Below are positions 19,822-21,848 of a DNA stretch of 35,306 bases, in pieces (position 1 is the first letter of the stretch; every line of letters begins with the position of its first letter). This DNA is from Chimaeribacter arupi (GTDB taxonomy: Bacteria > Pseudomonadota > Gammaproteobacteria > Enterobacterales > Enterobacteriaceae). Location: positions 1 to 35,306 of the forward strand of contig NZ_PJZI01000045.1 of NCBI RefSeq assembly GCF_002858805.1. Reading direction: 5' to 3'. The position numbers and the translations under genes were made by a program. The notes under the pieces were generated by a model. That model ran no database searches and was not told the origin of the DNA. It worked only from the letters and a program-made list of their open reading frames with translations.

Positions 19822-19980
19822 CGTCACTCTCCTGAATGCTTGCCAGAACCTGCTTCAGTGTAACGCGCCGTGCCCCGGCAGTGTGCAGCTTTTTCTGCCT
19901 GGGTGCGGCCGCTGCACCGTCACCCGGCAACGCGGCGGTAAGGCAGGGCGCACGCAGCGCACAGGGGCGCCTTTGCACGC

Positions 19981-19996
19981 TGGCACAGCCTTTGCT
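19981..19996 (+). promoter_or_regulatory. sigma-54 (RpoN) -24/-12 promoter
   Basis: TGGCACAGCCTTTGCT matches the consensus TGGCACRNNNNTTGCW at every fixed position, with the preceding C also fitting. The GG and GC pairs are spaced exactly as required. Transcription would begin near 20007 and run into the NifM-like gene, whose ATG is at 20097. An upstream GGTGC/GCACC inverted repeat (19902-19918), about 80 bp before the promoter, might be an activator site but does not fit the NtrC or NifA consensus. Confidence 0.6.
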
Positions 19997-20096
19997 TGTG
20001 CTTTTTATCATGATGCGCCGTTAGATAGTGGCGTGCCGCCAGGTGCAGATCCGTTACCCCGCATACCCGTGCCGCACGGCGGCAAGAGGAGAGAGT

Positions 20097-20540
20097 ATGG
20101 CAGAGCAGGAGACCCGTTATCACGCCACGGAACCGGCATGGGCTGGCTACCCCCCGGCCACCCAGCCCGTGCGTCGCCCGGCGGGTGTTGTGCCGCAACA
20201 CCTGCCGGAGCGCCGGCAGGCCAGCCACCTGTTTCTTGCCTGCACCCCGGCGCAGGCCGCTGACACGGAGCAACGTATGCGCAGCCTTTACCAGCGTCTG
20301 TTAATCGACATCCGCCGCTTTCACCGGCTGGCGCAGCGCCACTCAGACGGCCCGCAGGCCGCCGCCGGGGGCGCACTCGGCTGGGTAACGCGCGGCATGT
20401 TGCCCGCCTGCCTGGAACGCGTGCTGTTCGCGCTGGACGCCGATACCTTAAGCCCGGTGTTCCGCTCGCCGGACGGTTTCCATGTGATTTATTGCAGCGG
20501 CATCCGGCCGCACGGCGTCTGGTTGCCCGACGCGGGGTAA
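20097..20540 (+). CDS. NifM-like parvulin-type peptidyl-prolyl isomerase
   Basis: The 147-residue product resembles the C-terminal half of NifM, the isomerase needed to mature the nitrogenase iron protein. The parvulin fold spans about residues 41-135: SHLFLA (43-48), the helix around YQRLLIDIRRFHRLAQRHSDGP, GGALGWVTRGML (91-102), FALDADTLSPVFRSPDGFHVIYC (to 133). Full NifM is about 265 residues, so the N-terminal helical half is absent. There is no signal peptide, so it acts in the cytoplasm. The ATG at 20097 follows AGAGGAGAG at good spacing. A sigma-54-type promoter lies 100 bp upstream. No nif gene is in the window. It converges on gpgS, and the hairpin at 20554-20579 lies between them. 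The target protein is unknown. Confidence 0.8.
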   Translation: MAEQETRYHATEPAWAGYPPATQPVRRPAGVVPQHLPERRQASHLFLACTPAQAADTEQRMRSLYQRLLIDIRRFHRLAQRHSDGPQAAAGGALGWVTRGMLPACLERVLFALDADTLSPVFRSPDGFHVIYCSGIRPHGVWLPDAG

Positions 20541-20548
20541 ACCGCCAT

Positions 20549-20579
20549 AAAAAATGCCGGTCAGTGGCCTGACCGGCAT
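20549..20579 (-). terminator. terminator of the gpgP-gpgS unit
   Basis: An 11-bp stem ATGCCGGTCAG/CTGACCGGCAT with a 4-nt loop has a run of six T on the minus-strand side, so it mainly ends gpgS transcription. On the plus strand the T tract is missing, so the NifM-like gene would be ended only by the hairpin. Confidence 0.85.
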
Positions 20580-20627: not shown

Positions 20628-21848
20628 CTACACGTCACCGGCGTTGTCTTTTTCCACCGCGTCGTAGATGCGTTCCAGCATATCCGGGAAGGCAGACTGG
20701 ATGCGGCTCCAGCTCGGGATAAACGGTTTTTCGCTTGGCGTGTCCGTGAAGGCGGCACCCGCTTCCATGATCGCGTTGGAGAACATCTCCACGGCGGACT
20801 CTTCGCTGTGACGGTCAAACGTCAGGCCGTTCATGCGCGCGTCGTGGTCGAAGTCATCGATCATATCCAGTGCGGTGCGGTAGTAGGTGGCACGCAGCAC
20901 GCGGAAGGATTCGCTGGTAATCGGCACGCCCAGGATCGCCAGTTTACGGTAGAGCGCTTTGGTGATGTCGATACTCATGCGTTGCAGGCCGGCCGTGGCG
21001 TCATCTTCTGACATCGGCTGGTGCTTGTGGTCATAGTTATCGGCAATATCCACCTGGCAGATGCGCTTGGTGGAGGTGGTGCGGTGCAGCTCAGAGAGCA
21101 CGCCGATCTCCAGGCCCCAGTCACTCGGGATACGCAGGTCATTCAGCACATGGGTGCGCATCGCGAACTCGCCGGAGAGCGGGTAACGGTAGCTGCGCAG
21201 GTACTCCAGGAAGTCTGAGCGGCCGTACACGCGCTCCAGCGATTTCAGCAGCGGGTAAACCAGCAGGCGGCCCACGCGGCCGTTCAGTTTGCCGTTGGCC
21301 ACACGCGCGTAATACCCCTTACAGAAGTCGTAATGGAAGTTCGGGTTGGCGATCGGGTACATCATGCGCGCCAGCATCTCACGGTTATAGGTGACAATGT
21401 CACAATCGTGCAGGCCGACGGCAGTGGTGCGGCGGGAGGCGAGGGTATACCCCACGCAGAACCAGACGTTACGGCCTTTGCCCGGCTCCTGCGGGGAGAG
21501 GCCCTCTTTCGCCAGTTCTTCATCCAGCGCTTTCAGGCGCGGGCCGTCATTCCACAGGATGCGGTGGCGCTGCGGCAGGCGGCTGAAGAACTCGCGGGCA
21601 AACAGGAACTGGTCACGGTCAGCGCGATCCAGGCCGATGACAATCTCTTCCAGGTAGTTCACCTTGCACAGCTCATCCACGATGTGCGTCAGCGCCGGGC
21701 CTTCCAGCTCAGAGAACAGGGAAGGCAGGATCAGCCCCATGGAACGTCGCCCGGAGAACACCTGAAGATCGTACTCCAGCTCCTCCAGCTTACGGCGGGA
21801 AAAGTTATGGAAGTTGGTAATCACACCGTCCTGATAAAAATCACTCAT
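20628..21848 (-). CDS. gpgS: glucosyl-3-phosphoglycerate synthase
   Basis: This 406-residue retaining glycosyltransferase (GT81-type) fits glucosyl-3-phosphoglycerate synthases. The metal-binding DXD motif is D148-C149-D150 in GLHDCDIV. The MRTHVLNDLRIPSDWGLEIGVLSE segment is the conserved acceptor-side region. The enzyme joins glucose from a nucleotide sugar to 3-phosphoglycerate; a phosphatase then frees glucosylglycerate, a compatible solute. That phosphatase gene lies 161 bp upstream on the same strand. In Dickeya dadantii glucosylglycerate builds up under osmotic stress with little nitrogen. The ATG at 21848 follows GGAG at seven bases; the frame is open to 21953, but that stretch lacks similarity and a ribosome site. 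Confidence 0.88.
   Translation of the reverse strand: MSDFYQDGVITNFHNFSRRKLEELEYDLQVFSGRRSMGLILPSLFSELEGPALTHIVDELCKVNYLEEIVIGLDRADRDQFLFAREFFSRLPQRHRILWNDGPRLKALDEELAKEGLSPQEPGKGRNVWFCVGYTLASRRTTAVGLHDCDIVTYNREMLARMMYPIANPNFHYDFCKGYYARVANGKLNGRVGRLLVYPLLKSLERVYGRSDFLEYLRSYRYPLSGEFAMRTHVLNDLRIPSDWGLEIGVLSELHRTTSTKRICQVDIADNYDHKHQPMSEDDATAGLQRMSIDITKALYRKLAILGVPITSESFRVLRATYYRTALDMIDDFDHDARMNGLTFDRHSEESAVEMFSNAIMEAGAAFTDTPSEKPFIPSWSRIQSAFPDMLERIYDAVEKDNAGDV

Follow-up and report, generated by a model that had tools for sequence, protein, structure and literature searches.

A NifM-derived parvulin in Chimaeribacter genomes without nitrogenase, behind a conserved sigma-54 promoter and predicted NtrC boxes

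To our knowledge, the only client of the prolyl isomerase NifM is NifH, the iron protein of nitrogenase, and we know of no parvulin in the NtrC regulon. The other parvulins of enterobacteria include PpiC and SurA, the latter being periplasmic. One study, which leaves open why only some nitrogenases need NifM, describes the N-terminal half of NifM as the part that binds NifH; in it, the C-terminal half of Klebsiella oxytoca NifM gave by itself 39% of nitrogenase activity, or 80% when stabilised as a GST fusion (PMC12691677). The parvulin domain can thus act alone (PMC12691677). The NtrC-sigma-54 regulon of enterobacteria (glnA, glnK, rutA, gltI) has the same promoter type and paired upstream NtrC boxes as the gene described here, while differing in that this gene encodes a parvulin; a literature search for one found none. 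Searches of an open-access library listed no paper whose title or abstract concerns a NifM that is controlled by NtrC or occurs without nitrogenase, and the main text of the Chimaeribacter arupi genome paper holds no word beginning nif or isomerase (PMC10587679). We consider it likely that the gene encodes a reduced NifM placed under NtrC, a parvulin made in starvation for proteins of the same response.

The window, meaning the whole stretch of DNA that was analysed (35,306 nucleotides of C. arupi, contig NZ_PJZI01000045.1), carries the isomerase gene between ogt (named by eye) and a glucosylglycerate-type synthase gene. A first-pass annotation had placed promoter and gene at 19981-20540, which is exact to the base. 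The features are:

19871..19887, no strand assigned: predicted NtrC box A, TGCCCCGGCAGTGTGCA, at about -128 relative to the expected start (held-out motif 13.6 bits, the window's highest; identical in C. californicus)
19913..19929, no strand assigned: predicted NtrC box B, TGCACCGTCACCCGGCA, spaced 42 bp, or some four turns of the helix, from box A (held-out motif 11.6 bits, the window's third highest; 8.3 in C. californicus)
19981..19996, plus strand: sigma-54 -24/-12 promoter, TGGCACAGCCTTTGCT (exact match; kept in all three orthologues, absent with the gene in the fourth genome, G003)
20007, plus strand: expected transcription start, inferred from promoter geometry, 12 bases downstream of the GC in the -12 box
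20087-20091, plus strand: ribosome-binding site AGGAG (sequence reading)
20097..20540, plus strand: orphan NifM-derived parvulin gene, 147 aa (reading of the open frame and profile searches; ATG at 20097 and stop at 20538-20540 in the window sequence; no signal peptide by eye)
20097..20198, plus strand: poorly conserved proline-rich N-terminal tail, residues 1-34, replacing the N-terminal domain of NifM (protein alignment and dN/dS)
20226..20495, plus strand: parvulin (PpiC-type) domain, residues 44-133, with His44 and His129 kept and Gly85 at the NifM-cysteine position (profile and alignment)
20554..20579, no strand assigned: hairpin lying between the two converging genes, with stems at 20554-20564 and 20569-20579 (by eye; a T run follows on the minus strand)

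Given the T run after it on the minus strand, the hairpin is a likely terminator of the synthase operon. Elsewhere in the window, a 24-bp tandem repeat lies at 202-310 (4.5 copies, 96% matches).

The 147-aa protein matches the parvulin domain profile PF00639 over residues 44-133, both histidines included, at 65.7 bits against a cut-off of 21.7 (E 7.5e-18). Its best curated family is NifM (TIGR02933) at 87.3 bits, which is below that model's cut-off of 168.2 bits, followed by SurA (22.7) and PpiC (17.9). The match to TIGR02933 spans only positions 120-223 of the 256 in the profile, and the N-terminal client-binding half of NifM is thus absent, with the variable 34-residue tail in its place; the C-terminal tail of NifM is likewise missing. 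The first-pass annotation had compared the protein to the C-terminal half of NifM and had called the N-terminal half missing, and the family assignment and the start of the match at position 120 bear it out on both counts. The protein shares its domain with the PpiC and SurA parvulins of enterobacteria, and SurA is its best sequence match among solved structures, whereas the NifM profile scores 87 bits to their 18-23 and the Chimaeribacter protein has no signal peptide by eye. A predicted structure, built from a two-row alignment, reached a mean pLDDT of 44.3, too poor for structural comparison with NifM.

When the three Chimaeribacter proteins are set against 30 NifM domains, most near-invariant NifM positions are kept in the Chimaeribacter domain, including both histidines. 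However, the cysteine of the active-site loop, present in all 30 NifMs, is gone from all three: the C. arupi (Gly85) and C. californicus proteins have glycine there, and the loop is shortened in the protein of the third genome, G001. We take this cysteine to correspond to the catalytic cysteine of Pin1, and its loss may have weakened catalysis. It need not have abolished activity, since the two SurA domains that were aligned also lack the loop cysteine, and one or both of these are active.

In the sequence tree, the three Chimaeribacter proteins fall inside a NifM clade of 35 rows with a support of 100/99, and not with ordinary PpiC, a grouping that the first-pass annotation had named as counting against it. 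The main tree held 27 of the 33 NifMs found elsewhere in the family, 40 other parvulins and the three Chimaeribacter proteins, after three duplicates (L012, L013, L142), a fragment from G031 (L015) and a 109-aa PpiC-like row (L028) had been dropped. Within the clade, the Chimaeribacter proteins group with the NifMs of their family (97/89) and adjoin those of a single genus, g138 (99/93, 97/94); their branch is long, at 1.1 changes per site, in a tree whose bootstrap had not settled and whose columns were few by the program's own account. In a reduced tree of 42 rows, support for the join with g138 was 92/92, which falls short of the program's mark, and a topology uniting the 27 family NifMs to the exclusion of Chimaeribacter was not rejected (AU p 0.114). 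The parvulin domain thus belongs, by its place in the tree, to the NifM lineage, and its finer placement is less sure.

Among 392 genomes of the family, with at most nine candidates scored in each, 36 matches were obtained at 1e-8, three of them in Chimaeribacter and 33 in others; 31 of those 33 lie in open frames of at least 264 (stop to stop), the two short ones being in G031 (120; a genome 49% complete) and G342 (165). Among 398 genomes of the phylum there were 69 matches at 1e-10, and every frame except the window's own was at least 307. The NifM loci of G017, G140 and G373, viewed by eye in 20-kb stretches, sit in nif clusters. The NifM clade also takes in five parvulins from beyond the family; three of these (L014, L018, L141) have NifW/NifZ-like neighbours by eye and so look like ordinary NifM. 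Nitrate-reductase-linked parvulins were considered as closer kin and set aside after a literature search found nothing on point. In sister nifM genes, the codons for LAHHLL at the start of the isomerase domain can be read as a -24/-12-like sequence inside the gene (L086 9507, minus strand; L085 10149, plus strand), which is probably a coincidence.

Orthologues of the isomerase are present in three of four Chimaeribacter genomes (the window genome, G001 and G002, which is C. californicus). The C. californicus protein is 86% identical over the match and that of G001 75% identical over residues 20-146, and a scan of named genomes with two short peptide patterns led to one locus, that of C. californicus. 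G003 has only weaker parvulins, and the gene and its upstream region, promoter included, are missing there together, so the isomerase is not needed throughout the genus. None of the four genomes passes for NifH, with weak partial hits far below the cut-off, and none has a member of the NifD/K/E/N family, for which 4 of 14 controls are positive; NifZ also scored in none of the four, which says little as no control was positive either. The window itself shows, by eye, no other nif gene or remnant beside the NifM-like gene. The orphan status proposed for the gene at first pass, from the absence of nif genes in the window, therefore extends by profile search to four genomes without nitrogenase.

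The isomerase might still serve a nitrogenase iron protein carried on a mobile element in other strains, as the sister NifMs of G140 and G373 sit in nif clusters by eye. However, NifH and NifDKEN are absent from all four genomes, and three species keep the gene regardless. Its upstream region also has no NifA box, the best match to TGT-N10-ACA being 4/6 in all three species, although three of the eight -24/-12-like sites listed in control nif loci have such boxes at -97 to -99. We regard this explanation as highly improbable.

Kinship with the NifMs of nif clusters also raises the question of whether the gene is a relic: a final remnant of a vanished nif cluster, transcribed but functionless and being lost in turn. 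One of four species lacks it, and the protein no longer has the cysteine, the N-terminal half or the C-terminal tail of NifM. Yet the frames are intact in three species and the domain has a dN/dS of 0.176, 0.172 and 0.22 in the three species pairs, which shows it to be under purifying selection; the N-terminal tail is less so (0.44 and 0.45, with the third pair saturated). A relic is also at odds with the conserved promoter, and with a locus between ogt and the glucosylglycerate-type synthase in which no other nif remnant is seen in the window, and we think it quite unlikely.

In the promoter, TGGCACAGCCTTTGCT is the sole window match to TGGCACNNNNNTTGCW without a mismatch; with two mismatches allowed, there are 16 matches against a shuffle mean of 29, so only the exact match is informative. 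Across the C. arupi genome, TGGCAYNNNNNTTGCW has 29 exact matches against six for a reversed control pattern (C. californicus 29 and 5; G001 23 and 5; G003 18 and 11), a ratio by which some four fifths of the C. arupi matches lie beyond chance, conservation aside. In the intergenic alignment of three species, with gap columns scored as not identical, the -24/-12 box is the best-conserved window of 19 columns (16/19 identical, against 64/256 in the flanks), and the TGGC-N7-TTGC core of the box at 19981-19996 keeps its exact spacing and is conserved with the gene. The match to the RpoN consensus that the first-pass annotation had reported is thus exact, and its loss from relatives that keep the gene was not seen; promoter and gene are retained together in all three orthologues, and G003 is without either. 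In G001, a second -24/-12-like sequence, TGGCCGCCATTTTGCT (L011 1364-1379), lies 27 bp upstream of the conserved box.

For 14 of the 29 exact sites in C. arupi, that of the isomerase gene among them, the orthologue of the downstream gene also follows an exact site in both C. californicus and G001. The other 13 precede, as named by family or by eye, ten genes of nitrogen acquisition or catabolism (allophanate hydrolase, guanine deaminase, XdhA, GltI, PII, RutA, an NMT1-type binding protein, two amino-acid binding proteins and one DAO oxidase), one MFS transporter and two AraC-type regulators. G003 has 11 of these 13 sites, those of XdhA and of one AraC-type gene being missing. Xanthine dehydrogenase was for this reason entertained as a client and dropped. 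The alignment of G003 retains guaD and xdhA and is without the stretch that separates them, so the two genes are probably co-transcribed.

The boxes upstream of the promoter were sought with a motif learned, in three species, from up to 200 bases upstream of each of the other 13 conserved sigma-54 promoters, the isomerase gene being held out. Its width of 17 and its palindromic symmetry were imposed by the analyst; up to 150 random starts were run briefly, and the best eight and one NtrC-seeded start were run fully. All nine full runs agreed on TGCnCnntnannGnGCA, although some training promoters are without it. The learned motif is close to the published NtrC box, TGCACCAnnnTGGTGCA (PMC8743547), and it recovered the glnA pair outside the training set (16.2 and 13.5 bits, 32 bp apart). 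At the isomerase promoter it gave 13.6 and 11.6 bits in C. arupi, with a shuffle P of 0.007 for the better one, and 13.6 and 8.3 bits, 41 bp apart, in C. californicus. The window has three sites of at least 11.5 bits, and two of them are boxes A and B, the only such pair. However, the hits in G001 are weak (6.5 and 5.0 bits, 22 bp apart) and no better than shuffles (P 0.35), so that predicted paired boxes are found in two of the three species.

Simply counting matches to the NtrC consensus gave mostly non-significant results (P 0.18, 0.10 and 0.018 across the three species, and 0.23 on a second run), but glnK, a proven NtrC target, fails that count too (P 0.47). A single hit of the learned motif is no proof, as two equally strong ones, of 13.9-14.0 bits, fall within genes at the C. 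californicus locus; hits of at least 13.5 bits occur about once per 44 kb over the 87 kb of the window, L081, L082 and L083, with the promoter pair set aside. The argument for NtrC is carried by the pair, its position and its conservation. The nitrogen control through RpoN that had been proposed is supported by the two predicted boxes, an encoded NtrC and the lack of a NifA box; the weak boxes of G001 count against it.

The search for RpoN activators that the first-pass annotation had called for gave 12 activator-domain matches in the C. arupi genome, eight of them strong. Seven of the eight strong ones (all but L008) were typed: NtrC, NorR, GlrR, PspF, TyrR, a fusion with a sulfonate-binding domain and a DagR-like protein, none of which passes the NifA cut-off. 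The promoter could thus be a true sigma-54 promoter that answers to NorR, GlrR, PspF or the sulfonate-binding-domain fusion, all four of which are encoded. A palindrome, GGTGC-N7-GCACC, chosen post hoc, is conserved in all three species, at -79, -78 and -67 (P 0.002, 0.022 and 0.02); it shares bases with the NtrC-like boxes and could thus be meant for a different dimer. However, NorR, GlrR and PspF consensus sequences score at chance in all three species, and the held-out NtrC motif reaches the window's top score at this very promoter. We therefore hold an activator other than NtrC to be unlikely. The fusion is a 633-aa sigma-54 activator (L004 136-2034, minus strand, contig C110 of C. arupi), the C-terminal half of which resembles aliphatic sulfonate-binding proteins (NF008588 250.6 bits, cut-off 299; SsuA_fam 169.8 bits, cut-off 163.5), and it is apparently a sensor and activator in one protein.

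The first-pass annotation had also tied the isomerase to the converging glucosylglycerate genes, a link that we reject. The synthase occurs in 11 of 37 sampled genera, whereas Chimaeribacter is the only genus in which close isomerase orthologues were seen, and G003 has an identical synthase and no isomerase. C. californicus carries the isomerase gene and, between it and the synthase, a set of three genes: a permease that passes a galactoside permease model, a gene of about 670 aa, and a regulator that passes an AraC model. At the ogt-synthase junction of G003, the same set (its middle gene of 665 aa, a glycosidase by eye) stands and the isomerase is missing. The set marks a variable site (L081 5822-9991 in C. 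californicus, L082 4263-8490 in G003) and is absent in the window and G001; its gene of about 670 aa, a glycosidase by eye, has no NCBIfam match at 1e-10. Over 406 aa, the synthase (20631-21848, minus strand) shows 100% identity, as printed, among three Chimaeribacter genomes, although the DNA around it is only 87-91% identical.

Taken as a whole, the protein differs from NifM (TIGR02933) in its reduced architecture and sub-threshold score while keeping the parvulin domain of that clade, and its gene has predicted NtrC boxes in place of NifA boxes, in genomes without nitrogenase. We propose that, in a lineage that lacked nitrogenase, an ancestor shared by at least three Chimaeribacter species reduced an enterobacterial-type nifM to its prolyl-isomerase domain, and that its control would have moved from NifA to NtrC. 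Under nitrogen shortage, phosphorylated NtrC would bind the two boxes, located some 128 and 86 bases before the start, and drive sigma-54 RNA polymerase from 19981-19996, with transcription starting near 20007. The cell would then make a small cytoplasmic parvulin that aids the folding of at least one protein of the same starvation response, presumably a product of the NtrC regulon, by isomerising or holding Xaa-Pro segments.

That the client would be other than NifH is suggested only by the absence of nitrogenase together with purifying selection. A change of client would fit a parvulin half that can act alone but without its targeting part (PMC12691677). The protein may instead be a general cytoplasmic PpiC-like foldase without a dedicated client, adding folding capacity in starvation, its NifM origin being incidental. 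It is a complete parvulin domain without the N-terminal half, the NifH-binding part of NifM (PMC12691677), which such a role would suit. The invariant long stretches shared by all three proteins (e.g. TEQRMRSLYQRLLIDIRRF) nevertheless hint at a specific surface, and endogenous PpiC-domain proteins are, according to a section heading of one study, unable to do the work of NifM, so that parvulins are not freely exchangeable (PMC12691677); we find a general foldase somewhat unlikely. Our tentative fuller account, held with less confidence than the reduced NifM under NtrC itself, is of a nitrogenase maturase that outlived nitrogenase: the isomerase domain of NifM, minus its client-binding half, would have passed from NifA to NtrC and would serve a non-nitrogenase client in starvation, possibly as a holder and not an isomerase, given that the NifM cysteine is gone.

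A cut-down nitrogenase helper kept under selection and, judging from its upstream region, apparently induced by nitrogen starvation suggests a new job. A NifM-derived domain selected in a nitrogenase-free lineage, and apparently under nitrogen control, is a natural test of the stand-alone abilities of the domain and of whether it has other clients. The case also hints that control of a nif gene has shifted from NifA to NtrC, and it would add a folding helper to a promoter set that otherwise drives mainly transport and catabolic genes in Chimaeribacter.
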